A stretch of 64,000 nucleotides of DNA from an uncultured Trueperaceae bacterium (GTDB taxonomy: Bacteria > Deinococcota > Deinococci > Deinococcales > Trueperaceae), in contig CALMXZ010000016.1 in assembly GCA_937873495.1 (NCBI GenBank), positions 1 through 64,000 of the forward strand, in the 5' to 3' direction. The notes beneath the pieces were generated by a model. That model saw only the letters and a program-made list of their open reading frames with translations. It searched no databases and was not told the DNA's origin. Below are positions 3,029 through 21,830 of this stretch, piece after piece (position 1 is the first letter of the stretch; each line of letters opens with the position of its first letter). The translations under genes and the position numbers were made by a program.

Positions 3029-3150
3029 ATGGCCACGCCCGGGCTCACCGGGTGTGGTCGACTCCGATACCCGTGGCAACGAAGCGTGCGCCGTACTTGG
3101 GCGCTTGGGGCACGCAGAGCCAGTAGCGCAACCGACCGGGCACCGAAAGG
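3029..3150 (+). ncRNA. Pseudoknot-forming leader RNA element, copy 1 (candidate riboswitch)
   Basis: The leader immediately before the first lipoprotein carries a stem GCGTGCGCC (3084-3092) / GGGGCACGC (3107-3115) closing the loop GTACTTGGGCGCTT. The loop bases GCGCT (3101-3105) can pair with AGCGC (3125-3129), forming a pseudoknot just before the AAAGG ribosome-binding site (3146-3150). Two further copies (12320-12430; 21747-21830 on the minus strand) keep this layout. Copy 3 changes the stem to ACCCG/CGGGT and the pseudoknot pair from T-A to C-G, which are compensatory changes. A preceding hairpin (GGCCAC...GTGGTC, 3030-3058) is also present. The position suggests control of translation start. 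No known class was matched. Confidence 0.6.
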
Positions 3151-3160
3151 ACCCGCCTCG

Positions 3161-3988
3161 ATGCAGTCACTCGTGCCTCAACTCACCACCCGCAAGCTGA
3201 TCCGCCGTGCGGGCCTAGCGACCGCCGCGCTGGCGCTCCTGCTGGCCGGTTGCAAGCCGCCGCAGCAGGTCGACCAGACCAAGGTCGACAAGGTCGGCCT
3301 CGTGCTCCTCAGCGCGGACTCCGGCTCCGGCAAGGCGAGCGGGCAGGCAACCTTCGTCGCGCTGACGGCCGCGCGAGCGGAGGAACTCATGCGTAGCCCC
3401 TTCGGGTCCGAGATCGGCACGTGCACCGTCTCCACCAACCAAGCGCCGGCGACGGGCAGCGTGACGACGACGCCCGGTGGCGCGAGCCTGCTCGCCGGCG
3501 ACATCACGCTCCGCGTCGGCGACAACGTCTACGGGCTCCTGGAACGCGGCGAGGACGGCCGCTACACGCTCCGCGCGACTGACCCGCTCCCCGCCACCGG
3601 CCTCTCCCTGAAGCTCGCCGGCACCGGCGCGTTCCCCGCCTTCGCGGGCGTGGCCGTGAACGTCGGGCAGGCACCGGCGCCAGCCGACGCCTTCGACACG
3701 AGCGCCGTCACCGTCGGCACGGAGTTCGCCTGGAACCCGGGAACGGTGGGCGCCGCCCTCCTGCTCGTCGGCGCGAGCGACGACGGCTCGGTGGCGTACT
3801 CGTGCCTGGCCGACGACGCCGCTGGCACGTTCCGGTTCCCGGAAACCACACGTGACGAACTGACAAGCGCCGGTTACGACAGCGGCAACCTCGCGACCCT
3901 GGCCCGGATAAGCGCGACCCAAGCGCGCTCGGGCTCCGCGCTGCTGCTCGTCAACACCGTTCGGCTCACCGACCTAGGAGCGAAGTAG
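3161..3988 (+). CDS. Lipoprotein of unknown family, partner of deacetylase 1
   Basis: A 275-residue predicted lipoprotein with a signal peptide ending in LAGC (Cys31). I do not recognise the family. It is clearly paralogous to the product of 12446-13288: both share VGL.LL, TFVALTAARAEELM.SPFG, an 'IGTC.VST' segment, LLER.EDGRYT, a GTGAFPAF segment and a C-terminal ATL.R.S.TQARSG.ALLLVN. The body appears beta-rich and has no catalytic motif. I chose this ATG because the signal peptide begins there and AAAGGA lies about 10 bases upstream; longer versions of the frame run through the structured leader. Its stop is 3 bases from the giant deacetylase start, and the pairing is repeated downstream, so the two products probably act together on the cell surface. 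Confidence 0.85.
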   Translation: MQSLVPQLTTRKLIRRAGLATAALALLLAGCKPPQQVDQTKVDKVGLVLLSADSGSGKASGQATFVALTAARAEELMRSPFGSEIGTCTVSTNQAPATGSVTTTPGGASLLAGDITLRVGDNVYGLLERGEDGRYTLRATDPLPATGLSLKLAGTGAFPAFAGVAVNVGQAPAPADAFDTSAVTVGTEFAWNPGTVGAALLLVGASDDGSVAYSCLADDAAGTFRFPETTRDELTSAGYDSGNLATLARISATQARSGSALLLVNTVRLTDLGAK

Positions 3989-3991
3989 AGC

Positions 3992-6900
3992 ATGCACCGA
4001 CCCCAGCCGAAGACGCCTAGAGCCCCGCTCCGCCCCGCGCTGCGCCTGCTGTTCCTGATCGCGGCGTTGGTGACCGTGTTGGTGGCGTGTAACACGACCC
4101 CGAGCCAGCGCACCAACACCCGACCCGACCCGACGCCCACCGAGGCGCCCGCTTACAACCCGAACGTGCCGCGCCAAGGCCCCGGCAAGTCCTTGCCGCT
4201 GCACCTCGGCTTCATCCCCAAGGGCACCGGCGAGGCGCCGACCTTGCGCGCCCAGGCCCAGGGCGACGTCATCGTGCAGATGCAGGCGCTGGTCATCTCG
4301 GCGCGCGCGGACGCCGAGGACGAGCCGTCCGTTGGGGCGTGGCTGGCCCTGCTCGAACAGGCGGGCATGCCGTACGAGCGCATCGTGGCCACCGATCCGC
4401 AGTGGAACGCGCAGACCCTGGCTGACTTCCTGGTTACCCCGGACGGCGTCGGGCGGTTCCAGGCCGTGCTCCTGAGCACGAACAACCTCGTCTACGACGC
4501 CGGGCCGGGCGTTCCGCCCGCGAACCGCTACCCTTCGGCGTTCACGGACGATCAGTGGAAGGTCCTGTTCGACTACGAGCGCGCGTACGGTGTGCGCCAG
4601 GCGGCCCTGTACGGGGCGGCATGGAGCGGCGCCACGCCAAGCGAGGACGACTACGGCATCATCGATCCGAGCGGCGGCCAGGGGCTGAACAACGTGGTGA
4701 TCTCGCCGACGGCCGCCGGCCTCGGGATCTTCACGGACGTCGACGCGAGCAGCAGCATCACCCTGCGCGACACGTGGGGCTACCCGAGCACCGGCAACCA
4801 GGACTTCTCGACCCCACTCCTCGTCGACGGCAGCGGCCACATCCTGGCCGCCCAGATCAACACCAACGGCCGCGAGCGCATTACGCTCTTCTTCGACAAC
4901 GCCGCCTGGGGCGGCATCCCCGTCGTGTACACGCAGCAGCTCGGCGCCGCGCTCTTGCGCTGGGCTACGCGCGGCGTGCACATCGGCGAGCGGCGCAACA
5001 GCTTCCAGGCCGACGTCGACGACTGGTTCCTAGAGGCCGGGCACTGGGACGTCACCACGCATAGCATCGACGACCGCGAAGGCCACGGCATCCGCCTCAC
5101 CGCCAAGGACGTGCTGAGCTTGCGCGACCAGCAGGCGGGCCTACAGGCCATCGCCGGCGGCATCGCGTCCGACTTCAGGTGGTCCATGGCGTTCAACGGC
5201 ATGGGGACCACCGAGCCCGGCGAAGGCTCCGTCCCTGCGAACTGCGTCGAGAGCACGTCAGCGACGCTCACCTACATCACCAAATGCTTGGCGAACGACT
5301 TCTGGTGGGTCAGCCACACGTGGGACCACGAGTACATGGACTACATCCTGCCCGCCGTAGGAGGCGCCAGGAACCTGAACGTCGCCGGGGTCACGGACCG
5401 GCTCACCTGGAACGACGACCTCGCCGCCGCCTACGGCTTCGGCGCCACCTACTCCCGCAACAGCGTCGTCACCGGCGACATCTCCGGCCTCGGCTGGTAC
5501 GACCCCCTCGGTCCCGACCACGACCCCGTGCAGAAGGTGGACCACGGCCTCGACTGGGCCAGCCCGTACTTCATCCAGGGGACCTATAACACCGGCCACA
5601 CCTACGTCGCCTCCAACATGTCCACCCCCAGCCACGAGCCCGACTGCTGGGCGTGCGGCACCTACCTGACGCTCGACAACAACCACTACCTGCCCTTGAG
5701 CGGCTTCGAGGTATTCCTCGTCCCGCGCTGGCCGACGAACGTGTTCGCCACCGTCACCAGGCCCGCCGAGGTCGTCGACGCGTACAACATGGTCTACGGC
5801 TTGCACGGCTCGGACCCCAACCACTTCGATCACGACCTGACCTACCCCGAGATCCTCGACGTCGACACGAGCATCGCCCTGAGCCACCTGCTCTCCGGCT
5901 CCCCGTACCCGCACTACTTCCACACCCCGAACGCCGTCGAGTACGAGACGGGCAAGTCGCTGCTCACCGACTGGGCGACCGTCCTCTTCACCAAGTACGC
6001 GAGTCTCGTCAACGAGCCGCTCCTCTCGCACAAGAACGACGACTCGGCCGCCTACGTGCAGGCCCGCACGGACTTCGACGCCGCCGGCGTGACCGGCACG
6101 TGGAACCGCACCACCGGCAAGATCACCATCCGCTCCGCCAACGGCGGCCCGGCGTTCCTCACCGGTGCTTCCCTCGGAGCCGGTGCGCACGACAGCGTCT
6201 ACAACGGCCGCACCATCTCGGAGCGCGAACTCGGGGCCGGCCAGAGCGTCGTCATCGATGTGACGACGGCGGCGCCGGGCGCTCCGACCATCCAGTCGTT
6301 CTCCGCTACGCCCGCCACCATCCTCGACGGCGGCACGGCGCAGCTCACTTGGACCGTGTTCGGGCCGCACTCAGACATCACCGCCAGGGTCAAGGGCGGC
6401 GCGGCCGTCGGCTCGAACCTGAACGCGAGCGCGAGCCTCCCGGTCAGCCCCACCACGACCACCACCTACGAGCTGGTCGTCACCCCCTTGCAGGGCAGCG
6501 CCGTCACGCGCGAGGCGACCGTCGAGGTGACGCCCGTGCAGCCGGCCGTCACCTCGTTCACCGCCGACCCCAACCCCGTGGCTTACGGCGGCACGACCCA
6601 GCTCGCCTGGACCGTCACGGGGAGCGCGACCGACGTCGCCATCCGCCCGCAAGGCGGAGCCAACCTCGCCAGCGGCCTCGCCCGCAGCGGCACCTTGACC
6701 ACGCCGGCTCTCACGTCCGGCACCACGTACGAGTTGGTGGCCACGTGGGCGGGCGGCGCTCCGGTCGTCAGCGCCCTCACGGTCGATGTCACGGCGCCGG
6801 ACGCGCCGATCGTCACCAGCTTCGCCGCCGACCCGGCCGCCATCCCCGCCAACGGAACCAGCCAGCTCACGTGGGCGGTCGACGGTGGTCCCACCACCGA

Positions 6901-9900
6901 CGTCTCGATCCGGATCCAGGGTCAGGACGGCACCGCGGTCGGGAGCCTGGACCGCGCCGGCACCTGGACCACCCCGATCCTGAACGCGACCACCACCTAC
7001 GAACTCGTCGCGACCGGACCGGGCGGCACGGCCACTCGCAGCGCCACGGTCACCGTGGTAGGCGCGCCGAGCGCCACCTTCACCGCCACCGCGACCGAGA
7101 TAGCGGCCGGCGGCTCCTCGACACTCGAATGGATCGTGACCGGCACCACCAGCTCCGTCCTCATCCGCGAGAAGGCCGGCCCGACCCTGTACCAGAACCT
7201 CCAGCCGGCGGGCTCGCAGTCCGTCTCCCCCGCCGCCACGACCACGTACGAGCTCGTCATGGGATGGCTGGGCGGAGAGGTCGTGCAGGAAGCCATCGTC
7301 ACCGTGCGCACGGCTCCGGCGGTCTCGCTGACGACCGCCACTCCCGCCATCGTCTTCGGCGGATCGACCACCCTCGAGTGGTCGGTGAGCGGCGTCAGCA
7401 CCGGCGTCACGCTCTACCGCGACGGCGAGCTCGTCGACACGCTCTCCGGCACCGGCGGGCAGTACGTCGTGCAGCCGAGCGCGACCGGCACCTACGAGCT
7501 GCGCGCGGCGTGGTTAGCAGGCACGGTCACCGCCACCCAGCGGGTCGTCGTAACGCCTACCGTCGCGCTGAGCGCGACCCCGACGAGCGTCGTAGAGGGT
7601 TCCTCCTCCACGCTCGCCTGGGAGATCGGCGGCGGCTTCACCGGCGCCACGCTCCGCGAGCAAGGCTCATCAGGAGCCCCTGTCGCCGCGACGGGCAGTC
7701 AGTCCGTCTCCCCCATCACCGAGACCACCTACGAGCTCGTGGTCGCGTACGCCGGCGCCACCGGTCCGGCCGAGACGAGCGCGACCGCGACCGTAGCGGT
7801 CACGCCGGCACCCGTCGCACCGATCATCGAGAGCTTCACCGCGACCCCGACGGCACTCCTCAACGGCCAGAGCACCCAGCTCCAGTGGAACGTCACGGGC
7901 ACGACCACCGGCATCAGCCTGACGGCCAACGGCGCCACCATCGGGACCGACCTCGGGTCGAGCGGACCGAGGACCGAGAGCCCCACCACGACGACCACGT
8001 ACGTGCTGAGCGCAGCCTGGGAGGGCGGCGACCCCATCACCGCCACGGTCGCGGTCACCGTCACCCAGCCGCAAACCCCGACGGGTACCCTCACCGCCAC
8101 CCCAGCCACCATCATCGTGGGCAGCTCGAGCACGCTGAACTGGAGCGTCGCCGGCGACTTCACCAACGTCACCGTGCGCGCCCAGGGCGGCGCGACCCTG
8201 AGTTCCGGGCCGAGCGCGACCGGCGAGACGATCGTCACTCCGACGGTCACCACGACCTACGAACTCGTCGCCACGCAGATAAGCGGCGCCACCCTCACCG
8301 TGAGCACCGCGACGGTGACGGTGAACGAACCGACGGCTCCGACCGCCACCCTCACCGCCACCCCCGCCACCATCACCGCGGGCGGGTCGACAACCCTCAG
8401 CTGGAACGTGGAGGGCACCTACGCCTCCATCCGGCTCGGCATCGTTGGCGGAGCCGACATCGGCGGAGACCGCGACCCGTCCGGCACGCTCGTCGTCAGC
8501 CCGAACGCGACGACGACCTACGAGCTGCGCGTCGCATGGGCCAACGGCACGGTCACCACGCCGCGGCAGGTCGTCGTCACCCCGACCGCCACCCTCACCG
8601 CCACGCCCGAGACCATCACGAGCGGTGAGAGCTCCACCCTCGCCTGGACCGTCGTCGGCGGCTTCACCAGCGCCACGCTCCGCGCCCAAGGGACCGCGGG
8701 AACCGCCGTGAACGCCACCGGCAACCAGGTCGTCTCCCCCACCGCCACGACCGTCTTTGAGCTCGTCGTCGCCTACGTCGGCGGCAGCGACGTCGTCGCC
8801 TCGCAGACCCTGACCGTCAACCCGCCGCCCGTCGCCCCGACCATCGCAAGCTTCACGGCCGGCGCCAACCCGATCACCGTCGGGCAGACCACCCAACTCG
8901 CCTGGGAGATCGGAGCGGGGCCGACCACCAGCGTGGCCATCCGTATCCAGGGCCAGGCCGAACCCGTGGCGGACGCTCTGGCGCGCACCGGCACCTGGAC
9001 GACCCCGGCCCTGGCCGCGACCACGACCTACGAGCTCGTGGCCACCGGCCCGGGCGGCACCGCCACCGCCCCCCTCACCGTCACTGTCAACCCGCTACCC
9101 GTCGCGCCCGTCATCGCCGGCTTCACTGCCGACCCGACCGCGATCATCGCCAGCCAGAGCTCCCAGCTCACCTGGAGCGTGACGGGCACCTACACGGCCA
9201 TCGGCCTACGCGTCGGCGGCACCGTGATCAGGGACGACCTCGGCGCGAGCGGCGTCCTGACCGTTACCCCGGCCACGACCACGACCTACGAGCTGTTCGT
9301 CACCTGGTCGGGCGGCCCGGCGGTCGTGAGCCAAGCCACGATCACCGTCACCACCCCGACGGCCCCGACCGGCACCCTCACCGCCGACCCGACCACCATC
9401 ACGGTGGGCAGCTCGAGCACCCTGAGCTGGAACGTGGCGGGCGACTTCACGACCGTGACCGTCCGCGCTGCCAACGGCGACGTCGAACGGACGAACGCCG
9501 GCGCGAGCGGCACCGCCGTGGTGACGCCGGGCGCCACCACCACTTACGAGCTCGTCGCGCAGCCGCTCATCGGCTCGCCGAGCGTCGTCGCCACCACGAC
9601 CGTCACCGTCAACCCGCTGCCCGTCGCGCCGTCAGCCGAACTCTCGGCCGACAGCACGAACATCACGGCAGGTGGCTCCACCATCCTGCGCTGGGCGGTA
9701 GGGGGCGACTTCACGACCGTTCGCCTGCGGGCGAACGGCTCCGACATCGGCGGCGACCGCGCCGCCACGGGCGAACTGATCGTCAGCCCGGCCACCACGA
9801 CCACCTACCAACTCGTGGTCGCGTGGGACGGCGGTCCCGACGTCGTGCGCGAAGTGACCGTCACGGTCAACCCGCCGGAGGCACCGCTGGCCCAGCTCAC

Positions 9901-11926
9901 GGCGACCGAACCGACCATCACGTTCGGGGGGTCGACGAACCTCACCTGGTCCGTCACCGGCACGCACGCCGGCATCAGCCTCAGCACGAGCACCGGCACC
10001 GTCCTGGAGGCCGACCTCGGCGCCTCCGGCTCGCTCGCCGTCACCCCTGGCGCGACCACCACTTACGTCTTGGAAGTCGCCTGGGCGGGCGGCACGGTCA
10101 CCCGGACCGCGCAGGTCGTGGTGACCCCGACCGTGAGCTTCAGCGCCACCCCCACCAGCATCGTGAGCGGCGAGAGCTCGACCCTCTCCTGGAGCGTCGG
10201 TGGCGGCTTCACCGGCGCCACGCTCCGCCAGCAAGGCACGGGCGGCGCACCGGTCGGCGCGACGGGCAGCGAGGTCGTAGCGCCAACCGCCACGACCACC
10301 TACGAACTCGTGGTCTCGTACGCGGGCGGCACCGACATCGTCGCCACGCGCACCATCACGGTCGCCGCGGCGCCGGTCGCGCCGCAGATCACGGACTTCA
10401 CGGCCACCCCGGCGGCCATCACCGCAGGCGGCAGCTCCCTCCTAGGCTGGAACGTCACCGGCTCGGCCACGAACATCAGCCTGCGCGTCGGCGGCACTGC
10501 CGTCGAGAGCGGCCTGGCGGCGAGCGGCACCCTGCCCGTCGCCCCGACCGTGACGACGACGTACGAGCTCTACGTGACGTGGTCGGGCGGCGCGGCCGTC
10601 ACGCGCACCGTCCAGGTGACCGTCACCACCCCGACGGCCCCTAGCGGCACCCTCATCGCGACCCCGGCCACCATCCTCGTGGGCGGCACCAGCACCCTGG
10701 CCTGGAGCGTGACGGGCGACTTCACCAACGCCACCGTCCGTACCGCGAGCGGCCAGGTCATCTCCTCCGGCGCCGCGGCGTCAGGAAGCACGGTGGTCAG
10801 CCCGACCACGACCACCACCTACCAACTCCTCGCCACGCCCATCGGCGGCTCGTCCACCGTCATCGCCACCGCGACGGTGACGGTCGAACCGGTGCCGGTC
10901 GCCCCGACGGCCAGCCTCGGCGCCAACCCGACGACGATCACGGCCGGCGGCTCGTCCACCTTGAGTTGGGCCGTGAGCGGGACGTACACTACCATCCGCC
11001 TCAGGGCCGCCGGCGGCGCCAACATCGGCGGCAACCGCCCGAGCACCGGTCAGGCGGTCGTGAGCCCGACCACGACCACCACCTACGAGCTCGTCGTCAC
11101 GTGGTCCGGCGGCGAGGTGATTCGGTCGGCCAGCGTCACCGTCAACCCGGCCGCCCCCCAGGTGTCGTTCTCGGCCACCCCGCAGGCGATCGTGGCCGGC
11201 GGCGCCTCCACCGTCGCGTGGAACGTGGTCGGCGGGTACGACTCCGTGACCTTCGGCGTCGAGGGCGGCAGCGCCTCGGGCGTCGGGGCGAGCGGCAGCG
11301 AGCAGGTGTCGCCCACCACGACGACGACCTACGAGCTCCTCGTGACCTGGAGCGGCGGCACCATCCGCCGCCTCGCCACCGTCACGGTCACCCAGGCGCC
11401 CGTCCAGCCCACGGTCACCTTCGCCGCCACCCCGGCCACGATCACGGCCGGGCAGAGCGCGTCCCTGACCTGGGACGTCTCCGGCACCGCGACCGCCATC
11501 TCGATCCGGGCGCTCGGCGGCGGCACCGTAGCCACCAACCTCGCCTCCACCGGCAGCCACGGCGTGAGCCCGGAGGCCACGACCACCTACGAGCTCGTGG
11601 CCGTATGGGCCGATGGCGAGGTGACGGCGCAGGCCACCGTCACCGTCGAACCGGCCGGCGAACCAGAGCCGGAGCCCGACGGGCCGACGTTGACGCTGCG
11701 CCTCTCGGGCGAAGGCTTCGGGCTCGTCGTCCTCAGCCCCGGCGGTGAGGCGTGCATCGACGAGTGCGAGCTCACCTACCCCGAGGGCACCACCGTGACC
11801 ATCTCCCCCGTCGCGCTCCTCGGCTCCACGTTCGACGGCTTCAGCGGCGCCTGCGAGGGCGCCTCCTGCACGCTCACCATCGACCGCGACCTCGTGATCG
11901 ACGCGCGGTTCGAGTTCAAGGACTGA
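3992..11926 (+). CDS. Giant Agd3/CE18-like exopolysaccharide deacetylase with 21 Ig-like repeats (lipoprotein)
   Basis: A 2,644-residue surface lipoprotein (lipobox LVAC, Cys33). Residues of about 85-330 resemble the N-terminal carbohydrate-binding part of Agd3-type proteins. The next 350 residues form a deacetylase-like domain with an Asp motif QADVDDWF (D341, D343, D344) and an HxxxH motif HTWDH (H442, H446), the metal-binding arrangement of CE4/CE18 deacetylases. A YPHYFH segment lies further on. From residue 760 to about 2553 there are 21 tandem Ig-like repeats of about 85 residues (...TATPATIT.GGS.TLSW.V.G...TTTYEL...). The last 80 residues form an InlB-like domain with four Cys. In the Pel and galactosaminogalactan systems such enzymes deacetylate N-acetylgalactosamine polymers; that substrate is inferred here from the PelF and GH114 neighbours. 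The Agd3 resemblance is from memory, not from a search. Confidence 0.8.
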   Translation: MHRPQPKTPRAPLRPALRLLFLIAALVTVLVACNTTPSQRTNTRPDPTPTEAPAYNPNVPRQGPGKSLPLHLGFIPKGTGEAPTLRAQAQGDVIVQMQALVISARADAEDEPSVGAWLALLEQAGMPYERIVATDPQWNAQTLADFLVTPDGVGRFQAVLLSTNNLVYDAGPGVPPANRYPSAFTDDQWKVLFDYERAYGVRQAALYGAAWSGATPSEDDYGIIDPSGGQGLNNVVISPTAAGLGIFTDVDASSSITLRDTWGYPSTGNQDFSTPLLVDGSGHILAAQINTNGRERITLFFDNAAWGGIPVVYTQQLGAALLRWATRGVHIGERRNSFQADVDDWFLEAGHWDVTTHSIDDREGHGIRLTAKDVLSLRDQQAGLQAIAGGIASDFRWSMAFNGMGTTEPGEGSVPANCVESTSATLTYITKCLANDFWWVSHTWDHEYMDYILPAVGGARNLNVAGVTDRLTWNDDLAAAYGFGATYSRNSVVTGDISGLGWYDPLGPDHDPVQKVDHGLDWASPYFIQGTYNTGHTYVASNMSTPSHEPDCWACGTYLTLDNNHYLPLSGFEVFLVPRWPTNVFATVTRPAEVVDAYNMVYGLHGSDPNHFDHDLTYPEILDVDTSIALSHLLSGSPYPHYFHTPNAVEYETGKSLLTDWATVLFTKYASLVNEPLLSHKNDDSAAYVQARTDFDAAGVTGTWNRTTGKITIRSANGGPAFLTGASLGAGAHDSVYNGRTISERELGAGQSVVIDVTTAAPGAPTIQSFSATPATILDGGTAQLTWTVFGPHSDITARVKGGAAVGSNLNASASLPVSPTTTTTYELVVTPLQGSAVTREATVEVTPVQPAVTSFTADPNPVAYGGTTQLAWTVTGSATDVAIRPQGGANLASGLARSGTLTTPALTSGTTYELVATWAGGAPVVSALTVDVTAPDAPIVTSFAADPAAIPANGTSQLTWAVDGGPTTDVSIRIQGQDGTAVGSLDRAGTWTTPILNATTTYELVATGPGGTATRSATVTVVGAPSATFTATATEIAAGGSSTLEWIVTGTTSSVLIREKAGPTLYQNLQPAGSQSVSPAATTTYELVMGWLGGEVVQEAIVTVRTAPAVSLTTATPAIVFGGSTTLEWSVSGVSTGVTLYRDGELVDTLSGTGGQYVVQPSATGTYELRAAWLAGTVTATQRVVVTPTVALSATPTSVVEGSSSTLAWEIGGGFTGATLREQGSSGAPVAATGSQSVSPITETTYELVVAYAGATGPAETSATATVAVTPAPVAPIIESFTATPTALLNGQSTQLQWNVTGTTTGISLTANGATIGTDLGSSGPRTESPTTTTTYVLSAAWEGGDPITATVAVTVTQPQTPTGTLTATPATIIVGSSSTLNWSVAGDFTNVTVRAQGGATLSSGPSATGETIVTPTVTTTYELVATQISGATLTVSTATVTVNEPTAPTATLTATPATITAGGSTTLSWNVEGTYASIRLGIVGGADIGGDRDPSGTLVVSPNATTTYELRVAWANGTVTTPRQVVVTPTATLTATPETITSGESSTLAWTVVGGFTSATLRAQGTAGTAVNATGNQVVSPTATTVFELVVAYVGGSDVVASQTLTVNPPPVAPTIASFTAGANPITVGQTTQLAWEIGAGPTTSVAIRIQGQAEPVADALARTGTWTTPALAATTTYELVATGPGGTATAPLTVTVNPLPVAPVIAGFTADPTAIIASQSSQLTWSVTGTYTAIGLRVGGTVIRDDLGASGVLTVTPATTTTYELFVTWSGGPAVVSQATITVTTPTAPTGTLTADPTTITVGSSSTLSWNVAGDFTTVTVRAANGDVERTNAGASGTAVVTPGATTTYELVAQPLIGSPSVVATTTVTVNPLPVAPSAELSADSTNITAGGSTILRWAVGGDFTTVRLRANGSDIGGDRAATGELIVSPATTTTYQLVVAWDGGPDVVREVTVTVNPPEAPLAQLTATEPTITFGGSTNLTWSVTGTHAGISLSTSTGTVLEADLGASGSLAVTPGATTTYVLEVAWAGGTVTRTAQVVVTPTVSFSATPTSIVSGESSTLSWSVGGGFTGATLRQQGTGGAPVGATGSEVVAPTATTTYELVVSYAGGTDIVATRTITVAAAPVAPQITDFTATPAAITAGGSSLLGWNVTGSATNISLRVGGTAVESGLAASGTLPVAPTVTTTYELYVTWSGGAAVTRTVQVTVTTPTAPSGTLIATPATILVGGTSTLAWSVTGDFTNATVRTASGQVISSGAAASGSTVVSPTTTTTYQLLATPIGGSSTVIATATVTVEPVPVAPTASLGANPTTITAGGSSTLSWAVSGTYTTIRLRAAGGANIGGNRPSTGQAVVSPTTTTTYELVVTWSGGEVIRSASVTVNPAAPQVSFSATPQAIVAGGASTVAWNVVGGYDSVTFGVEGGSASGVGASGSEQVSPTTTTTYELLVTWSGGTIRRLATVTVTQAPVQPTVTFAATPATITAGQSASLTWDVSGTATAISIRALGGGTVATNLASTGSHGVSPEATTTYELVAVWADGEVTAQATVTVEPAGEPEPEPDGPTLTLRLSGEGFGLVVLSPGGEACIDECELTYPEGTTVTISPVALLGSTFDGFSGACEGASCTLTIDRDLVIDARFEFKD
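6268..11650 (+). repeat. Array of 21 tandem Ig-like coding repeats (about 255 bp unit)
   Basis: I counted 21 instances of the TTTYEL-type strand motif (variants TTYEL, TTYVL, TTYQL, TVFEL), spaced about 85 codons apart. Each is preceded by a T.TATPATIT-type strand and SW.V.G. Units are diverged in sequence but constant in length. Some alternate in type: the ATGPGGTAT unit recurs as numbers 3 and 11. This suggests several rounds of segmental duplication. Long open frames on both strands across this array are a by-product of the repetitive GC-rich coding and are not genes. Confidence 0.85.
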
Positions 11927-12300: not shown

Positions 12301-12319
12301 CCTCTCATGTGCAGAACCG

Positions 12320-12430
12320 TCCCCGCCCGGTCGTGTGGGGACGTAGCCAGACACCGCGAGGCGATGAAACGTGCTCCGTAACTTGGGCGCTTGGGGCACG
12401 CCGAGCCAGTAGCGCAACCGGCCGGGAGGG
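12320..12430 (+). ncRNA. Pseudoknot-forming leader RNA element, copy 2 (candidate riboswitch)
   Basis: The stem CGTGCTCC (12370-12377) / GGGGCACG (12393-12400) closes the loop GTAACTTGGGCGCTT. The loop bases GCGCT (12387-12391) pair with AGCGC (12411-12415). The 3' strand GAGCCAGTAGCGCAACCGG is nearly identical to copy 1. A hairpin GTCCCC...GGGGAC precedes it, in the same place as the hairpin of copy 1 but with different base pairs. The ribosome-binding site follows at once. Confidence 0.6.
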
Positions 12431-12445
12431 AAGGGACCCGATCAG

Positions 12446-13288
12446 ATGCAGTCATCTATGCCGCAACCCAGCACCACCCTACTAGGACGAGCGCGCTTAG
12501 CCGCCGTGGTCGGCACTTGCCTCGCTCTCCTCCTAGCGAGCTGCCAGAATCAGCCGCAGCCCCAGCCAGGGACGGTGGACAGGGTCGGCCTGATCCTCCT
12601 CAACCAAGCGGCCGCCACGGGCGCGCCGATCGGCCAAGCGTCGTTCGTCGCCCTGACCGCGGCGCGCGCCGAGGAGCTCATGAGCAGCCCCTTCGGCACG
12701 CAAGTAGGCACGTGCGTCGTCTCCACCGCTACCGCGCCGGCCACCGGCACGGTCGGCACCGGCGCCGGCGGCAGCCGCCTCAACGCCGGCGACATCCTCT
12801 TCAGCACCGGCTCCGGCACCTACGGCCTCCTGGAACGCGAAGACGACGGCCGCTACACCATGCATACGACCGAGCCCCTGCCAACTACGGGCCTCCGACT
12901 GCGGCTCGTCGGCACGGGGGCCTTCCCCGCTTTCACCAACGTGGCGATCAACACGGGCACGGCGCCCGAACTCGCCCCGGGGTTCGACCCGGCGGCGGTG
13001 ACCGTCGATTCAGAGTTCGGCTGGACGCCCGGCTCGGCCGGCAGCGCCGTCCTCCTGGTAGGGACGGGCACCGGCACCGCCGGCGTCGTCGCCTACTCGT
13101 GCCTCGCGCAGGACGACCTCGGCCACTTCGAGTTCCCGGAGACCGCCCGCGCCGACCTGGCCGCGGCCGGCTTCACCACGGGCAGCCTAGACACGCTCGC
13201 GCGGGTCAGCACCACCCAGGCGCGCTCGGGCACGGCCCTCCTCCTCGTCAACTCGCTGAGGACCACCTACCTCGGGGGCGACCGGTGA
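12446..13288 (+). CDS. Lipoprotein of unknown family, partner of deacetylase 2
   Basis: A 280-residue paralogue of the product of 3161-3988, with a signal peptide ending LASC (Cys33). The two share TFVALTAARAEELM.SPFG.Q.GTC-type segments, LLERE.DGRYT, LVGTGAFPAF and a C-terminal TLARVSTTQARSGTALLLVNS. The family is not recognised and no catalytic motif is visible. The start is supported by AAGGGA about 10 bases upstream and by the signal peptide. Its TGA overlaps the GTG start of the second deacetylase (GTGA), which implies translational coupling. Repetition of the small-plus-large pair in both cassettes is the best evidence that it has a job tied to the deacetylase. Confidence 0.85.
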   Translation: MQSSMPQPSTTLLGRARLAAVVGTCLALLLASCQNQPQPQPGTVDRVGLILLNQAAATGAPIGQASFVALTAARAEELMSSPFGTQVGTCVVSTATAPATGTVGTGAGGSRLNAGDILFSTGSGTYGLLEREDDGRYTMHTTEPLPTTGLRLRLVGTGAFPAFTNVAINTGTAPELAPGFDPAAVTVDSEFGWTPGSAGSAVLLVGTGTGTAGVVAYSCLAQDDLGHFEFPETARADLAAAGFTTGSLDTLARVSTTQARSGTALLLVNSLRTTYLGGDR

Positions 13289-16200
13289 GCCGCACCCGCG
13301 AACCCGCGCGCAGCGGAGCGTGGCGCAACGGCGCCTGGCGCCGCGCTTTCCTCTTCGCCGCCCTGCTAACGCTCCTCGCGGCGTGCAGCACGACCGACTC
13401 CACCAAGTCAACCCGTACCCCACCGACCCCCGCCGCCCCAACCACGCTCGACACCTCGAAGTGGCGCCCCTCCGTCATGGTCCCCAAGGGCCCGTTCTAC
13501 TCGGCGCCGCTGCAGCGCGGCACTTTCACGCAGGGCGAGGCCACACCATGGCTCCTCTCGCAGGCCGCCGGCGACGAAGTCGAGATGCGGGCGCTGCTGA
13601 TCAGCGCCACCGAGAACAACACCCAGAACGAGCCGACGGTCGGCGCCTGGAAGGCCCTGCTCGAGCAGAGCGGCATCCCGTACGACCACCTGGTGGCCAC
13701 CACCACCACGCTCACGCAGGAGATGCTCGTCGGAGCAGGCGAGGTCGGCCGCTACCAGGCCATCCTGCTGAGCACGAGCAACCTCGTGTACGACGACGGG
13801 GGCACGTACCCGTCCGCGTTCACCCAAGCCGAATGGAACACCCTCTTCGCCTACGAGCAGGCCTACGGCGTCCGGCAGGTCGCCCTCTACGCCGAGCCGT
13901 TCAGCGTTCCGGAGGGTGACCCGTACGGCCTCGCCTCCCACGACGGCTACACGGGGCTGGACGGGACCGTCCTGACGCCGACAGCCGCCGGTCTCGAGGT
14001 CTTCACCGACCTGAACCTGGATAGCCACATAGAGCTGTACGGCACCGTCGGCTTCCCCAGCCACGGCCCGGCCGCGGGCACCACGCCCCTCCTCATGGCC
14101 GGGTCCGACATCCTCGCCGTTCGCATCCAGAACGGCGGCCGCGACCGCGTCGCGCTCCTCTACAACAACCCCGCGTGGGGGGACCACGCCGCGGGCGAGC
14201 ACGACACCCCCGCCACGTACGTGCAGCAGATCGGCCCGTCGCTCCTGCGCTGGGCCATGGGCGGCATCCACATCGGCGAGAGGCGCGCCAGCTTCCAGGC
14301 CGACGTCGACGACTGGTTCATCACGACGGGCATCTGGGACGTCGACCTCGGCCAGATCGTCGACGAGCCCGGCTTCGCCCTGAGCGCCAACGACGCCGTG
14401 GTCGCGGCGAGCCTGCAAGCGTCCTTGCGCGCTGCGGGCGGCGGCATCGCCCCCGACTTCACCTGGTCCATGGCCTTCAACGGCGAGGGCGCCAACTTCA
14501 GCAGCGTGGTCGACTGCGCCCAACCCGTCGAGGCGCACACCCTCTCGAGCATGACGCGCTGCCTCGCCGGCGACTTCTGGTGGGTCAACCACACGTGGGA
14601 CCACCAGTACATGGACTGGATCCCGGGCGTCGGCGTCAACCTCACCGTCCCCCAGGTCACCAGTCGGCTCACGCAGAACGACGGCCTCGCCACCGAGTTC
14701 GGCTTCGGGGTCAACTACTCGCCCCGCAGCCTCGTGACGGGCGACATCTCGGGCCTCGGCTGGTACGACCCGGATGGCCCCGAGCACGAGCCCGTCCACA
14801 AGGTCGACTTCGGCCTCGACCATGCCAGCCCGTACTTCGTGCAGGCCGCGTTCGACACGGGCCACACGTTCGTCGCCTCCAACATGTCAACCCCCAGCCA
14901 CGAGCCGAACTGCTGGTCGTGCGGCATCTACCTCACGCTCGACGACAACGTCATCGAGCCGATCCCGAACGTCGAGCTCTTCCTCGTGCCGCGCTGGCCG
15001 ACCAACCTGTTCGCCACGGTCACGACGCCCGAGGCCGTCGTGGACGCGTACAACCGGATCTACGGGCCCGGTGGCACCGACCCGATCCCAGGCATCACCG
15101 AGCCGCTCACGTACGAGCAGATCCTCGACATCGACACGGAGATCGCCCTCGGGCACGTGTTGGCCGGCTCTCCCTACCCGCACTACTTCCACGTGCCGAA
15201 CCTCTACAACTACGCCCCCGGCCACTCGACGCTCTACGACTGGACGCTCGAGCTCTTCGAGCGCTACTCCGCCCTCGTCAACGAGCCGATCCTGAGCATG
15301 CGCAACGACGAGTTCGGCGCGTACGTGAAGGCGCGCACCGACTTCCTGAACGCCGGCGTGACCGGCGTGTGGAACCGCGCGACCGGCGAGGTGACCCTGA
15401 GCAGCGCGAACGGCGGCCCCGTCTTCTTCACGGGCGCGAGCATGGGCGGCGGTTCGGACGACCTCACCTACAACGGGCGCGTCATCTCCGAGCGCGAGTT
15501 CGCGCCAGGCGCCAGCCTCACCTTCAACGTCAACCCGCCCGTGGCGCCGACCATCACCGCCTTCGCGGCCGACCCGAGCGCCATCGAGTACGGCCAGACG
15601 ACCACGCTCTCCTGGAACGTGACGGGCGTGACGACCGACATCGCCATCCGCGTGCAGGGCACCGCGACCAACGAGGTCGCCGGCCTCGGCACGAGCGGCA
15701 CCTGGACGACCCCGGCGCTCCTGGCCGACACGACGTACGAGCTCGTGGCCACGTGGGCGGACGGCGACCCAGTCGTTGCAAGCGCCGCCGTCACCGTCGC
15801 TCCGCAACCCGCCCCCGTGATCGGCTCCTTCACCGCGACCCCCGGCACCATCACGGCCGGGCAGACCACCCAACTCGGCTGGACCGTCACCGGCGGCGCC
15901 AGCACGAACGTCGCCGTCCGCGTCCAGGGCGCCGAGACACCGCTGGCCACGGGCCTCGACCGCACGGGCACCCTGACCACGCCCACCCTGACGAGCGACA
16001 CGACTTATGAGCTGGTCGTCGGTTGGACGGGCGGCGCCGACGTCACGCAGACCGTCTCCGTCACGGTCAACCCGGTGCCGCCGGTGGCGCCGGGGGCCAC
16101 CCTGTCGGCCAACCCGCCCGCCATCACCGCCGGCGACGCGTCGAGCCTCGCCTGGGAAGTCACGGGCGACTACACGTCCATCACGCTCCGCGTGCACGAG

Positions 16201-16845
16201 GGCGCCGAGCTCGAGACCGGCCTGCCGCGCGATGGCAACCGCTCCGTCACGCCGAGCACCACCACCACCTACGACCTCGTCGTGGCGTGGGTCGGCGGCG
16301 ACCCGGTCGTGCGCCAGACCACCGTGACGGTGGCCCCGGCCCCCATCCGGCCAACCATCAAGTTCGGCGCCGAACCGGCCGGCATCGTCGCCGGCGAGAC
16401 CGCGCGGCTCTCCTGGACGGTCACGGGCTCCGCCCAGACCATCGCCCTGCGCGTCAAGGACGGCGCAGAGGTCGCCACCGGCCTCAACACCATCGGCGGC
16501 CGCACCATCGCGCCGACGGCCACGACGACGTACGAGCTTGTGGCGACGTGGCCGGGCGGCGACCCGGTGGTGGCCGAGACGACCGTCACGGTCGGCGCGG
16601 GCTACACCCTCTCGCTGCAGCTCGGCGGCGAAGGCTTCGGCCTCGTCGTGAGCAGCCCGCAGGGCATCGTCTGCATCGACGAGTGCACGGCCACCTACCC
16701 GGCGGGCACCACCGTCACGCTGGCACCGGTAGCGCTCCTCGGCTCCACCTTCGAGGGGTTCACGGGCGCCTGCGAGGGCGACACCTGCACCCTCACCATC
16801 GACCGCGACCTAGAGATAGGCGCCCGCTTCAGGTTCGAGGACTGA
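13285..16845 (+). CDS. Agd3/CE18-like exopolysaccharide deacetylase with 4 Ig-like repeats (lipoprotein)
   Basis: An 1,186-residue paralogue of the giant protein at 3992-11926. The GTG start at 13285 overlaps the preceding stop and begins a signal peptide with lipobox LAAC (Cys34); a longer upstream frame runs antisense-like through the other lipoprotein and is rejected. The deacetylase-like domain keeps QADVDDWF (D340, D342, D343) and HTWDH (H436, H440), as well as LGWYDP, SNMSTPSHEP and SPYPHYFH. Only four Ig-like repeats follow (about residues 750-1105), then the same four-Cys InlB-like C-terminal domain. PelF begins 9 bases after its stop, so this copy is directly in the polysaccharide operon. 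The predicted role is deacetylation of an exported GalNAc-type polymer at the surface. Confidence 0.8.
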   Translation: MSRTREPARSGAWRNGAWRRAFLFAALLTLLAACSTTDSTKSTRTPPTPAAPTTLDTSKWRPSVMVPKGPFYSAPLQRGTFTQGEATPWLLSQAAGDEVEMRALLISATENNTQNEPTVGAWKALLEQSGIPYDHLVATTTTLTQEMLVGAGEVGRYQAILLSTSNLVYDDGGTYPSAFTQAEWNTLFAYEQAYGVRQVALYAEPFSVPEGDPYGLASHDGYTGLDGTVLTPTAAGLEVFTDLNLDSHIELYGTVGFPSHGPAAGTTPLLMAGSDILAVRIQNGGRDRVALLYNNPAWGDHAAGEHDTPATYVQQIGPSLLRWAMGGIHIGERRASFQADVDDWFITTGIWDVDLGQIVDEPGFALSANDAVVAASLQASLRAAGGGIAPDFTWSMAFNGEGANFSSVVDCAQPVEAHTLSSMTRCLAGDFWWVNHTWDHQYMDWIPGVGVNLTVPQVTSRLTQNDGLATEFGFGVNYSPRSLVTGDISGLGWYDPDGPEHEPVHKVDFGLDHASPYFVQAAFDTGHTFVASNMSTPSHEPNCWSCGIYLTLDDNVIEPIPNVELFLVPRWPTNLFATVTTPEAVVDAYNRIYGPGGTDPIPGITEPLTYEQILDIDTEIALGHVLAGSPYPHYFHVPNLYNYAPGHSTLYDWTLELFERYSALVNEPILSMRNDEFGAYVKARTDFLNAGVTGVWNRATGEVTLSSANGGPVFFTGASMGGGSDDLTYNGRVISEREFAPGASLTFNVNPPVAPTITAFAADPSAIEYGQTTTLSWNVTGVTTDIAIRVQGTATNEVAGLGTSGTWTTPALLADTTYELVATWADGDPVVASAAVTVAPQPAPVIGSFTATPGTITAGQTTQLGWTVTGGASTNVAVRVQGAETPLATGLDRTGTLTTPTLTSDTTYELVVGWTGGADVTQTVSVTVNPVPPVAPGATLSANPPAITAGDASSLAWEVTGDYTSITLRVHEGAELETGLPRDGNRSVTPSTTTTYDLVVAWVGGDPVVRQTTVTVAPAPIRPTIKFGAEPAGIVAGETARLSWTVTGSAQTIALRVKDGAEVATGLNTIGGRTIAPTATTTYELVATWPGGDPVVAETTVTVGAGYTLSLQLGGEGFGLVVSSPQGIVCIDECTATYPAGTTVTLAPVALLGSTFEGFTGACEGDTCTLTIDRDLEIGARFRFED

Positions 16846-16854
16846 TAGCTGACC

Positions 16855-18264
16855 ATGCGGCTCTTGCTCACAACGGAAGGCACCTACCCATCCATCATGG
16901 GCGGTGTCAGTACCTGGTGCGACCAGCTGGTCCGTGGCATGACAGACCACGATTACCACCTGCTGGAAGTGACGGGTCCGTTGCCGACCAAGCCCGCTTA
17001 CACCCTGTCCTCCAACGTCGACGGCCTCACCACCGTCCACCTGTGGACGCCGCGCGACGCGAAGTACGTCAGGGGCGGCCAGACTGAACGTGCCTTCAGG
17101 CGCGGCCTCGAGCGCCTCCTCCGGTTCGCGGAGGAGGACGCCGAGGCCTTCGCCAAGGGTCTCTTCGACCTGGCCGTGCTCGGTAGCGAGTTCGACCTCT
17201 GGCCGTTCTTCGACAAGCCTGCCACCTGGGAGGCCGTCCGCTTCGCCATCTGGCGCGCCAACGGCGAGCCCCCGACGATGGCCGAGGTGGCGCTGGCCGT
17301 CAACTGGTTGAAAGGCACCCTGGTGCCCCTCCTGTTCATCCCGGAGGAGGTCGACCAGGCCCACACCACGTCCAACGGCCTGTCGGCCATCCCGGCGTGG
17401 ATCGCCGCCAAGGCGTACGACGTGCCGCTCATGCTCACCGAGCATGGCCTGTACTTGCGGGAGCGGTACCTGAGCCTCGCGGGCGAGGAGAACCCTCCCG
17501 GGGTCAAGATCCTCCGCTCGCGCTTCTACTACACGCTCGCGCGCATGATGTACCGCGAGTCCGATCTCGTGGTCTCCGTGAGCGAGTTCAACCGCACCTG
17601 GCAGATCGAGCTCGGGGCGCCGGCCGAGAAGACGCGCGTCGTGTACAACGGCGTCGCGCCGGAGGCCTTCCCCGAGGCCTCCGAGGCCAGCCAGCAAGAA
17701 CCAACGGTGGCGTGGGTCGGGCGTATCGACCCCATCAAGGACCTTGAGACGCTCGTGCGCTCGTTCACGACCGTCACGAGAACCACCCCTGACGCGCGCC
17801 TCAGGCTCTTCGGGCCGGTCCCGAAGGGCAACGAGGCGTACGGAACCAAGGTCAGGCAGCTGGTCGAGGAGCTGGGCCTCACCAAGTCCATCACGTTCGA
17901 GGGCCCGGTCAAGCCGGTCCACCGCGCGTACCACGCGGCCGACGTCGTGGCGCTCTCGAGCATCTCGGAAGGGTTCCCCTACGTGGCCATCGAGGCCATG
18001 ATGTGCGGCCGCCCCGTCGTGGCCACGCAGGTCGGCGGCGTCGGCGAGGCCGTCGGCGACTTCGGCCGCATGGTCGATCCGCGCGCGCCGGAGGAGTTCG
18101 GCAGTGCGCTGAGCGAGCTGCTCATGGACGTGCCGCTGCGTAGACGCCTCGGCATGGGGGCCCGCGAGCGAGCGCTCAACCTCTTCACGCTGTCTCGCAT
18201 GTACGACGGTTACCGCGGCCTCTACTCGGAGCTCGGTACCCGGAACCACGTGCGCGTGGCCTGA
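16855..18264 (+). CDS. pelF: PelF-like GT4 glycosyltransferase
   Basis: A 469-residue cytosolic glycosyltransferase. The N-terminus MRLLLTTEGTYPSIMGGVS is the PelF/DUF3492 signature (EGTYP..GGVS), and LTEHGLY.RER follows as in PelF. The C-terminal half is a GT4 Rossmann domain with VAWVGRIDPIKD, a GPV segment and the donor-site motif SEGFPYVAIEAMMCGRPVV (E-x7-E). In Pseudomonas and Bacillus, PelF polymerises sugar from a UDP-activated donor, reported as UDP-GalNAc, to build Pel. Here it starts 9 bases after deacetylase 2 and its stop overlaps the next start (TGATGA). No PelA, B, C, D or E homologue is recognised in the window. Confidence 0.85.
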   Translation: MRLLLTTEGTYPSIMGGVSTWCDQLVRGMTDHDYHLLEVTGPLPTKPAYTLSSNVDGLTTVHLWTPRDAKYVRGGQTERAFRRGLERLLRFAEEDAEAFAKGLFDLAVLGSEFDLWPFFDKPATWEAVRFAIWRANGEPPTMAEVALAVNWLKGTLVPLLFIPEEVDQAHTTSNGLSAIPAWIAAKAYDVPLMLTEHGLYLRERYLSLAGEENPPGVKILRSRFYYTLARMMYRESDLVVSVSEFNRTWQIELGAPAEKTRVVYNGVAPEAFPEASEASQQEPTVAWVGRIDPIKDLETLVRSFTTVTRTTPDARLRLFGPVPKGNEAYGTKVRQLVEELGLTKSITFEGPVKPVHRAYHAADVVALSSISEGFPYVAIEAMMCGRPVVATQVGGVGEAVGDFGRMVDPRAPEEFGSALSELLMDVPLRRRLGMGARERALNLFTLSRMYDGYRGLYSELGTRNHVRVA

Positions 18265-19589
18265 TGAGCCAATCCGTCGCCTACACGCCGCCCGAGTACG
18301 TCCCACCGGAGATCCTGACCAACTCCTGGACTTGGGACGAGCGCCGCAGCCAGGACCCTGTCAACCTCCTCGGACGTTCTCTCAACCGCCTCTGCCTCGA
18401 GGCGAGCGACCCGTACGAGATCGTCGCCCATCTCGAGGCCCTAGGCTTCAACAGCCCGACGGCGCTGGCGCGCTTCGGCATGACGAGCCACTTCGAGTTG
18501 GCGCACGAGCTCTTCCAGCGTACGCCGCGCATCCGCGAGCGCCGCGAGCCCAAGAAGAAGTCGACGCGCGATCTCTCCACCCCCATCGCCATGGGTCTCG
18601 CGTTCGTGGTCACCTTCGTGCTCGGGGCGTTCAGTCAGATCGCCATGCTGGCTCCCGCGCTCGTCGTCCTCATCTGGTCGCAAGGGGGCGCCGCGCTACT
18701 GATGAAGGCGCGAGGCGAGCTCCAGGCGGGCGAGCGGCAAGACGTCCTCGCCGCCCTCGTGCAGCTCGGGGCGCTCGCCATCCTGCTTAGCTGGGTGTTC
18801 CTGCGCTTCGGAGTCGCCACTTTCGCGCCCACCCTGACGTGGTTCGCCGTCGGCAGCCTCCTCTGGGGCGAGCGGTACCGGGCCGCCGTCGCCATGCCGC
18901 TCGTGGTGGGGCTGAGCCTGGTCGCCACCGCGCTCCTCCCGATCCCGGACGTCGTTCCTCAGTACGTTGCCATCCTGGCCGCGCTCGCAGCGTGTGCCCC
19001 GCTCGCTTGGCGCAACCCGCGAGGGGCCGTCGGATGGCTGCGCAGCAGCGCGGCCGTCACGCTGCACCCGCTCCTGTACGGCATCGGCCAGGGGCTCCTC
19101 ATCGTCGCGCTGCTGAGGCGCGAGAACGCGAGCGACGAAGTCATCCCCGGAGCCGTACTCCTGCTCCTCATCCTGCTGCTCTCGCAACGACTGCTCATCA
19201 CGCTGAAGGCGCTCCTCACCAAACGGCTGTGGCGCTCGACGAGCGAGCCGGGCTTCCAACGCTTCGCCCAGCTAGCCCTGCTCGTCTACGTCGGCGTTTA
19301 CATGCTGCCGCTCCTCGCTGCCTTCGCGTTCGAGCTGCTCTCCGGCTCCACGAGTTGGCACTTCCACTGGTACGCGTTCGGCCTCTTCGGCCTGAGCCTC
19401 GGCATAGCCGTCGTCGACTTCGCGCTCGGCCTCCCCGCCGGCGCCAGCATCCCGTTCCTCCTCGCCGGCGTGGCCGCCGCCGCCGGCCTGCCGTTCCTCT
19501 GGGTGTGCCTGGCTCTGGCCCTCTCCCTCCTGCTCGTGGCCGAGTTGCGGGTCAGGCAGGTGGGACGCTATGCCATCTACCTCCTATAG
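18264..19589 (+). CDS. Polytopic membrane protein of the Pel-like operon
   Basis: A 441-residue protein with a cytosolic N-terminal part of about 110 residues, including a DPYEIVAHLEALGFNSP helical segment and a basic KKK stretch. About ten to twelve hydrophobic segments follow to the C-terminus. I do not recognise it firmly. Its place directly between a PelF-like synthase and a GH114 protein, with overlaps on both sides, makes a role in polymer export or in anchoring the synthase likely. PelG (a 12-TM protein) or PelE would be the functional counterparts, but I see no specific PelG signature. It could also be a flippase-like protein of its own family. Confidence 0.65.
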   Translation: MSQSVAYTPPEYVPPEILTNSWTWDERRSQDPVNLLGRSLNRLCLEASDPYEIVAHLEALGFNSPTALARFGMTSHFELAHELFQRTPRIRERREPKKKSTRDLSTPIAMGLAFVVTFVLGAFSQIAMLAPALVVLIWSQGGAALLMKARGELQAGERQDVLAALVQLGALAILLSWVFLRFGVATFAPTLTWFAVGSLLWGERYRAAVAMPLVVGLSLVATALLPIPDVVPQYVAILAALAACAPLAWRNPRGAVGWLRSSAAVTLHPLLYGIGQGLLIVALLRRENASDEVIPGAVLLLLILLLSQRLLITLKALLTKRLWRSTSEPGFQRFAQLALLVYVGVYMLPLLAAFAFELLSGSTSWHFHWYAFGLFGLSLGIAVVDFALGLPAGASIPFLLAGVAAAAGLPFLWVCLALALSLLLVAELRVRQVGRYAIYLL

Positions 19590-20304
19590 GGCCCACCCCG
19601 ACCTGCTCGTCTACTACGGCTCCGGCGCGCTCACCACGCTCGGGCGCTACCGGCGCGTCGCACTGCAGTCGGACCACTACACGCCGGCCGACGTGACCCG
19701 CCTGACGGCCGCGGGCACGAGCGCCCTCGCGTACATCTCGCTCGGCGAGGACACCGGCCCCGCCGCGCCGTGGCAGCTAGAGGAGCGCAACCCCGTGTGG
19801 GGCGGGCATTACGTGGCACCAGGCCACCCCGGGTGGTTGGAGCACGTGCGGAACAGGGTCGAGCGCGCCGTGGCGGACGGCTACGACGGCATGCTGCTCG
19901 ACACCCTCGAGACTCCCCCGATCCTGGCGGGCCACGGCGGCGAGCTACTGCGACTCGTGGCCGCCGTCCGCGAGGTCGTCGGCAACGGCTACCTGTTGGC
20001 CAACCGCGGCTACGCGCTGCACCGCCAGCTCGCGCCGCTCGTCGACGGCTTCCTCTTCGAGGCCTTCTCGACCACCTGGGAGGGCGGCTACCGGGCGCTA
20101 CGCGGCACTGAACTCCAGGACAACGCTTCGCGCCTGCGCGCCATACAGGCCACGGGCAAGGAGCTGTACGCGCTGGACTACGCCAACCGCCCCGGACTGG
20201 CCGACTTCGCCGTCCAACGCGGCGCCAACCTTGGGCTGCGCGTACAGGTCACCGACCGGGAAGTCACGGGGCTGCCGCTACAGCCCGTGCCGGCGCACGG
20301 CTAG
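19570..20304 (+). CDS. GH114-like putative endo-alpha-1,4-polygalactosaminidase, no signal peptide
   Basis: A 244-residue TIM-barrel-like protein of the GH114/TM1410 type. Visible motifs are ALAYISLGED (family YIS.GE), DGMLLDTLET (an Asp at the end of a strand, as in the family) and YLLANRGYAL. GH114 enzymes cleave alpha-1,4-linked galactosamine polymers; the glycosidase domain of PelA is the best-known case. There is no N-terminal signal or anchor, so this copy would act in the cytosol unless it is carried out by an unusual route. It overlaps the membrane-protein gene by 20 bases and ends the plus-strand operon. Activity is inferred; I cannot confirm both catalytic acids. Confidence 0.75.
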   Translation: MPSTSYRAHPDLLVYYGSGALTTLGRYRRVALQSDHYTPADVTRLTAAGTSALAYISLGEDTGPAAPWQLEERNPVWGGHYVAPGHPGWLEHVRNRVERAVADGYDGMLLDTLETPPILAGHGGELLRLVAAVREVVGNGYLLANRGYALHRQLAPLVDGFLFEAFSTTWEGGYRALRGTELQDNASRLRAIQATGKELYALDYANRPGLADFAVQRGANLGLRVQVTDREVTGLPLQPVPAHG

Positions 20305-21660: not shown

Positions 21661-21746
21661 CGGCTACCAGTCCCACCTTTCGGGCGCAATCTGAAGTTGT
21701 AGTGGCAAACGAACGAGCGCGAAGTAAGGTAGAGAACCTACTCGAA

Positions 21747-21830
21747 CCGGTTGCGCCACTCGCTCCACCCGGCCCAGGCGCCCAGATACGGGACGGGTTT
21801 CATAGCATTTCGAGGGCTTCCCCTCGTGAT
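21747..21830 (-). ncRNA. Pseudoknot-forming leader RNA element, copy 3 (candidate riboswitch)
   Basis: Read on the minus strand, the stem ACCCGTCCC (21798-21790) / GGGCCGGGT (21775-21767) closes the loop GTATCTGGGCGCCT. The loop bases GCGCC (21781-21777) pair with GGCGC (21757-21753). The flanking sequence GAGCGAGTGGCGCAACCGG matches copies 1 and 2. The stem and the pseudoknot both differ from copies 1 and 2 by compensatory changes. The pseudoknot strand GGCGCAA can alternatively pair with TTGCGCC (21689-21683) right beside the ribosome-binding site, a plausible on/off switch. A hairpin CGAGGG...CCCTCG precedes it. Confidence 0.6.

Follow-up and report, generated by a model that had tools for sequence, protein, structure and literature searches.

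Riboswitches of the c-di-GMP-II class (RF01786, GEMM-II) are described in PMC9495176 as characteristic of clostridia and of Deinococcus, and tandem arrangements of these aptamers are known, with 59 doublets and 9 triplets reported (PMC9481103). Transcription termination is one of the two expression platforms reviewed for the class (PMC12564702). The clostridial targets are surface-anchor genes. The c-di-GMP-I class (RF01051, GEMM-I) has the same ligand and a different fold. Synthesis of the Pel polysaccharide is encoded by pelABCDEFG operons and in Gram-positive bacteria by pelDEADAFG. P. aeruginosa and B. cereus switch it on in response to c-di-GMP, and the known input is at the protein level, through c-di-GMP bound by PelD (PMC7112168).

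We analyzed a stretch of 64,000 nucleotides (the window) on contig 16 of a Trueperaceae assembly of 3.44 Mb in 17 contigs. Three elements in the window are very probably c-di-GMP-II aptamers, each in the 5' leader of a different transcript of a single Pel-like exopolysaccharide cluster, where predicted c-di-GMP binding would change access to the Shine-Dalgarno (SD) sequence.

Identification of three c-di-GMP-II aptamers

When the window was searched with every Rfam covariance model, exactly 3 gathering-level matches were obtained, all of them to the c-di-GMP-II riboswitch and all above its gathering score of 53.5 bits:

3063..3146, + strand: c-di-GMP-II aptamer copy 1 (RF01786 59.8 bits; model R1 80.7 bits)
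12351..12432, + strand: c-di-GMP-II aptamer copy 2, with a weak P1 (RF01786 56.0 bits; model R1 64.5 bits)
21736..21819, - strand: c-di-GMP-II aptamer copy 3 (RF01786 64.1 bits; model R1 85.5 bits)

The alignments were full length in the 3 copies (model positions 1-84 of 84), with E-values in the 64-kb window of 8.9e-11, 1.1e-9, and 5.2e-12, respectively, far above chance. The leader RNA is real and probably has a regulatory role. A new RNA class was ruled out by the RF01786 matches of all 3 copies, and the window elements belong to a known riboswitch class. An earlier sequence-only reading had named a match to a non-regulatory Rfam family as evidence against its proposal; the family matched is a regulatory one. 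Its guess of c-di-GMP as the ligand fits this class. The same reading had seen a likeness to GEMM-I with the rest of the RNA not fitting. The GEMM-I model (RF01051) had no match in the genome or the window, a soft negative as the control genomes gave none either, and the whole RNA fits RF01786, the other c-di-GMP-sensing class, end to end; the GEMM-I reading was rejected. Its start of the RNA at 3029 was misplaced, as the aptamer begins at 3063 and 3031-3059 forms a separate upstream hairpin. Weak RNA-model matches at 63920-64000 (-) and in the stretch L042, with E about 0.09, were regarded as chance matches.

Fold, covariation, and ligand pocket

The stem, loop, and pseudoknot cores lie at 3084-3129 (+), 12370-12415 (+), and 21798-21753 (-), with sequences exactly as first claimed, and the full aptamers extend slightly beyond them. 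The stem noticed at that time is P2 of RF01786, and its pseudoknot is the RF01786 pseudoknot. Copies 1 and 2 have GTGC/GCAC in P2 and GCGCU/AGCGC in the pseudoknot, and copy 3 has CCCG/CGGG and GCGCC/GGCGC in the same places. The P1 helices of copies 1 and 2 are weak. In copy 1, the following helices are part of the RF01786 fold:

3084-3089/3110-3115, + strand: P2
3101-3105/3125-3129, + strand: pseudoknot
3070-3073 (CCCG)/3137-3140 (CGGG), + strand: P1

With a covariance model built from twelve sequences (copy 3 entered twice), we searched 97 stretches and obtained 133 matches; base pairs were then counted in the 129 distinct aptamers of this genome family (Trueperaceae, Deinococcota). P2 was 94.8% paired with both-sided changes at 8 of 8 pairs, in an alignment that was fitted to the P1/P2 structure and favours P1 and P2 pairing. 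The pseudoknot was absent from the model and so not favoured; its pairs 3-5 were formed in 378 of 381 cells (shuffled mean 332, maximum 342; 500 shuffles), with the joint forms GCU/AGC in 97 aptamers, AUC/GAU in 14, and GCC/GGC in 12, 2 of which forms occur in the window copies. Pseudoknot pairs 1 and 2 were invariant across the 129 aptamers. P2, P1, and the pseudoknot covary in the family aptamers, and the compensatory changes from which a real folded, pseudoknotted RNA had been argued are genuine. Copies 1 and 2 are very alike and precede paralogous lipoprotein/Agd3-like pairs, as expected if they had been duplicated with their genes and the similarity were due to chance or repeats without regulatory function; similarity of this kind without regulatory function is extremely improbable given the divergence of copy 3 with compensatory changes, the wide covariation in the family, and the full-length RF01786 scores.

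The pocket nucleotides were defined as the U before GGGC, the A of AGU, and the AA and G of GCAACCG, a choice of ligand-contacting letters that we take to correspond to those of the solved Clostridium c-di-GMP-II aptamer. All five (T36, A60, A68, A69, and G72) are consensus in the 3 window copies, and the same letters were conserved in 121, 127, 120, 126, and 125 of the 129 family aptamers, respectively. Specificity variants may exist in the family genomes, with a linked pocket change in 8 of 129 aptamers, but none of the 3 window copies has the linked change and every pocket position examined is consensus, making it very unlikely that these RNAs sense another ligand.

Genes downstream of the three copies

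The aptamers end 15, 14, and 76 nt before the start codons of genes on the same strand (copies 1, 2, and 3, respectively), and these starts are accompanied by SD-like sequences. The genes of the cluster are as follows:

3161..3988, + strand: lipoprotein gene after copy 1, 275 aa (open reading frame, lipobox LAGC, SD AAGGA 9 nt before ATG; no Pfam family matched)
3992..11926, + strand: Agd3-like deacetylase/CBM87 protein, 2644 aa, second gene of the copy-1 transcript (Pfam Agd3_CE 1.1e-7 and CBM87_Agd3 2.6e-7, both above the cut-off)
12446..13288, + strand: lipoprotein gene after copy 2, 280 aa (58% identity to the copy-1 lipoprotein)
13285..16845, + strand: second Agd3-like protein, overlapping the copy-2 lipoprotein gene (CBM87_Agd3 3e-12, scanned in a longer frame from 12391)
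16855..18264, + strand: PelF-like GT4 glycosyltransferase of the copy-2 operon (NF038011 PelF 185 bits, cut-off 100)
18264..19589, + strand: multi-pass membrane protein overlapping the end of the PelF gene (8 hydrophobic segments; no family match)
19570..20304, + strand: GH114-like protein encoded at the end of the copy-2 operon (PF03537 2e-6, barely above the cut-off)
20329..21660, - strand: GH114 lipoprotein after copy 3 (PF03537 1.1e-85; lipobox LAAC)

Copy 2 heads a five-gene operon with overlapping or almost abutting genes encoding the lipoprotein, Agd3-like, PelF, membrane, and GH114-like proteins. The sole close named relative of the PelF gene was in a Trueperaceae assembly (66% identity). 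The claim that all 3 copies precede genes making or cutting one polymer holds as annotation (PelF, Agd3-like, and GH114).

The cluster has a PelF glycosyltransferase, a deacetylase, a hydrolase, a membrane protein, and a predicted c-di-GMP input in common with Pel operons. Those operons use PelD as a protein input, whereas the input seen here is RNA, with no PelD or PelG model match. The PelD GGDEF model (PF16963) had no match above the cut-off in 41 genomes and matched no control, and the PelD of B. cereus also escapes sequence search (PMC7112168). The PelG model (PF16933) had no match in this genome and matched one control genome; a multi-pass protein follows the PelF gene. The locus is a probable case of c-di-GMP acting through RNA on a cluster of the PelF type, for which PelD is the known, protein-level sensor, and naming the ligand makes regulation of the polymer cluster directly testable. 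Nine GGDEF matches in the genome, one of them about 300 bases past the window end, indicate that c-di-GMP can be made. PilZ receptors had no match in the genome, and five control genomes were matched. The riboswitches are the c-di-GMP receptor seen here, and others are possible, for example MshEN-type ATPases.

The lipoprotein/Agd3-like gene pair is tandemly duplicated (3161-11926 and 12446-16845) with one riboswitch per pair, and in a second genome of the same genus (G019) one pair of two has a riboswitch. The N-terminal 200 aa of the GH114 lipoprotein (20329-21660 (-)) resemble parts of proteins encoded directly after c-di-GMP-II copies in G035, G010, G019, G003, and other genomes, and this region before the GH114 domain is perhaps a common surface module of the regulon. 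Elsewhere in the window, a 726-aa frame at 15-2195 (+) has an aldose epimerase match at 14-216 only, and its remainder looks like the wrong strand of a 617-aa frame at 735-2588 (-).

Distribution in the genome, family, and phylum

We identified seven RF01786 copies in the genome, comprising the 3 in the window, a doublet on contig 11, and a doublet on contig 5. Of 39 family genomes, 34 had RF01786, at most 21 copies in one genome; in the phylum it was found in 77 of 111 genomes, representing 25 of 31 genera. In G019, the cluster is syntenic and inverted, with a riboswitch before the GH114 gene and the first lipoprotein gene, such that two of the three window sites are kept in synteny; the copy 3 site precedes the GH114 orthologue, and copy 2 has no counterpart there, the second lipoprotein gene lacking a riboswitch. 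The first downstream genes in the family encode mostly lipoproteins or exported proteins, and a scan of 71 of them identified GH26 (12), beta-helix (7), subtilase (6), GH114 (2), GH99 (2), and prepilin motif (2) matches. These aptamers share with known c-di-GMP-II riboswitches the 84-position aptamer, P1, P2, pseudoknot, pocket letters, and 5' leader position. The clostridial surface-anchor targets are replaced here by a Pel-like cluster and by GH114, GH26, and beta-helix lipoproteins; further differences from known members are that no group I ribozyme and no terminator were seen here and that a related subset has the start-codon hairpin platform described below. The distribution suggests that c-di-GMP-II riboswitches control a large regulon of exported proteins throughout Deinococcota, on which the literature searched says little.

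Among the 133 family aptamer matches, 25 doublets (gap < 250 nt) were identified, 15 of them GCU/GCU and 10 GCU/AUC by pseudoknot form, and the AUC-type aptamer was second in all 10 of the latter. Many GCU/GCU doublets precede GH26-like lipoproteins.

The linked pocket change combines a U-to-C substitution at model position 36 with an A-to-G substitution at position 68 (L097, L083, L127, L099, L094, L151, L091, and L129). At least 5 of these aptamers sit 8-10 nt before short acidic lipoprotein genes with the SD GATCCGGAGG. The change is a candidate for either a ligand-specificity variant or a compensated pocket pair, and it is assayable for altered ligand specificity.

A start-codon hairpin in leaders of AUC-type aptamers

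Of the 15 leaders that follow an aptamer with an AUC/GAU pseudoknot, 13 (L041, L138, L141, L144, L119, L122, L128, L032, L093, L107, L116, L124, and L132) carry a strand whose commonest form is GGUUGCAUCC. Its first part complements the GAUGCAACC of the same aptamer, in some leaders by way of a G-U pair. Its second part forms a hairpin over G(G/A)AUG, the sequence containing the start codon, and an SD-like sequence lies inside the hairpin. The hairpin covaries, with UCC facing GGA in nine leaders and UUC facing GAA in four, and one carrier (L041) is the contig-5 doublet of this genome. Pairing with GAUGCAACC and the start-codon hairpin are mutually exclusive, so that when the aptamer is folded with its ligand bound, the start codon would be expected to stay in the hairpin; this arrangement predicts a translational OFF switch. 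No description of this platform was found in the limited literature searched, and it gives the subset a clear platform prediction. It is better supported than the alternative pairings of the window copies.

Taken across Trueperaceae, c-di-GMP might govern the Pel-like polymer and hydrolases mainly through c-di-GMP-II riboswitches that replace PelD, many of them with a start-codon-strand platform that unfolds the aptamer or covers the start codon and is undescribed in the literature searched, a speculative proposal that we regard as rather unlikely in this full form.

Predicted control of the window copies

The following leader features were identified near the window aptamers:

3031..3059, + strand: 12-bp hairpin immediately 5' of aptamer 1 (computed fold)
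12318..12343, + strand: 9-bp hairpin immediately 5' of aptamer 2 (sequence and computed fold)
3137..3155, + strand: candidate alternative hairpin CGGG-(SD AAAGGA in loop)-CCCG, competing with copy 1 P1 (sequence)
21682..21689, - strand: strand UUGCGCCC, 21-22 nt 5' of the start codon, complementary to the copy 3 pseudoknot strands (shuffle test)

The leaders of copies 1 and 2 have no terminator-like sites, and the single minus-strand match at copy 3 overlaps the start codon and has a poor T tail; the total was two sites, compared with a mean of 0.6 after shuffling. A search for sigma-70-like promoters near the 3 copies found none. The absence of a usable terminator after any copy, together with an SD that starts 5-6 nt past P1 in copies 1 and 2, indicates that control is probably at the level of translation. 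Termination or antitermination is an established platform for the class (PMC12564702), but it is improbable here, considering the terminator search and the only about 25 nt left from the aptamer core to the start codon in copies 1 and 2.

In the proposed translational mechanism, c-di-GMP from the cell's GGDEF proteins would bind the folded pseudoknot and lock the P1 and pseudoknot strands, altering ribosome access to the SD region. In copies 1 and 2, the SD could alternatively be trapped in a small hairpin that uses the P1 3' strand CGGG with CCCG beyond the SD. Such a hairpin excludes P1, and c-di-GMP would thus be an activator; we slightly favour this ON reading for the two copies. The hairpin itself is weakly supported, with 4 bp in GC-rich DNA, and it has a counterpart in copy 2 and a CCGG/CCGG form in the G019 orthologue. 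Modelled SD access (bound minus free, with 5 or 40 nt upstream) differed by 0.0 or -1.5 kcal/mol in copy 1, 0.0 or -0.3 kcal/mol in copy 2, and -1.6 or +1.2 kcal/mol in copy 3. With 40 nt upstream, the G019 orthologue gave -2.8 kcal/mol, which agrees with activation, as does copy 1 (-1.5); with zero for copy 1 at 5 nt and near zero for copy 2, this support for activation is weak. The differences are small and depend on upstream length, so that folding leaves the ON/OFF direction undecided and was not used as proof.

In copy 3, the strand 21-22 nt 5' of the start codon has two possible partners, the pseudoknot strands and sequence close to the SD. The sequence-only reading had pointed to such an alternative pairing beside the ribosome-binding site, and it is present, with shuffle p-values of about 0.03-0.07 and a counterpart equally far from the start in G019. 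UUGCGCC, 22 nt 5' of the start codon, is a 7-nt complement of the 3' pseudoknot strand (p=0.03, dinucleotide shuffles), GCGCCC is a 6-nt match to the loop complement (p=0.07, dinucleotide shuffles), and the 8-nt GGCGCCCA stands at the same distance from the start in G019 (p=0.05), where the leader has otherwise diverged; each p-value comes from one test, with 67 leaders examined, and is suggestive only. We judge it the likelier outcome that c-di-GMP would be OFF for the GH114 hydrolase at copy 3, because of the analogy with the better-supported start-codon hairpin found elsewhere in the genome and family.

All three window copies could instead be OFF switches, with P1 closing beside or over the SD or a freed strand covering it. 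The SD lies wholly or partly within P1 in several short-leader relatives (L103, L106, L111, and L118), the modelled bound state hides the SD in 28 and exposes it in 11 of 68 leaders (40 nt upstream), and the start-codon hairpin of AUC-type aptamers is OFF by its logic. Against this, the modelling gives zero or the opposite sign in copies 1 and 2, as it does in the G019 orthologue, and c-di-GMP turns Pel synthesis on, not off, in P. aeruginosa and B. cereus (PMC7112168). A uniform OFF response is a credible alternative that we place somewhat below an even chance.

Strong hairpins stand immediately 5' of aptamer 1, aptamer 2, and the G019 orthologue (L137, upstream of 19804 (-)); they are alike in position and not in sequence. 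Further, AGCGCCC or GCGCCC occurs near the start in four family leaders (L152, L146, L016, and L027), where it could pair with the aptamer loop GGGCGCU or with the SD-bearing strand. Several of the genes behind these leaders are GH26-type, alongside others, and this alternative pairing is likely a second platform with the same logic.
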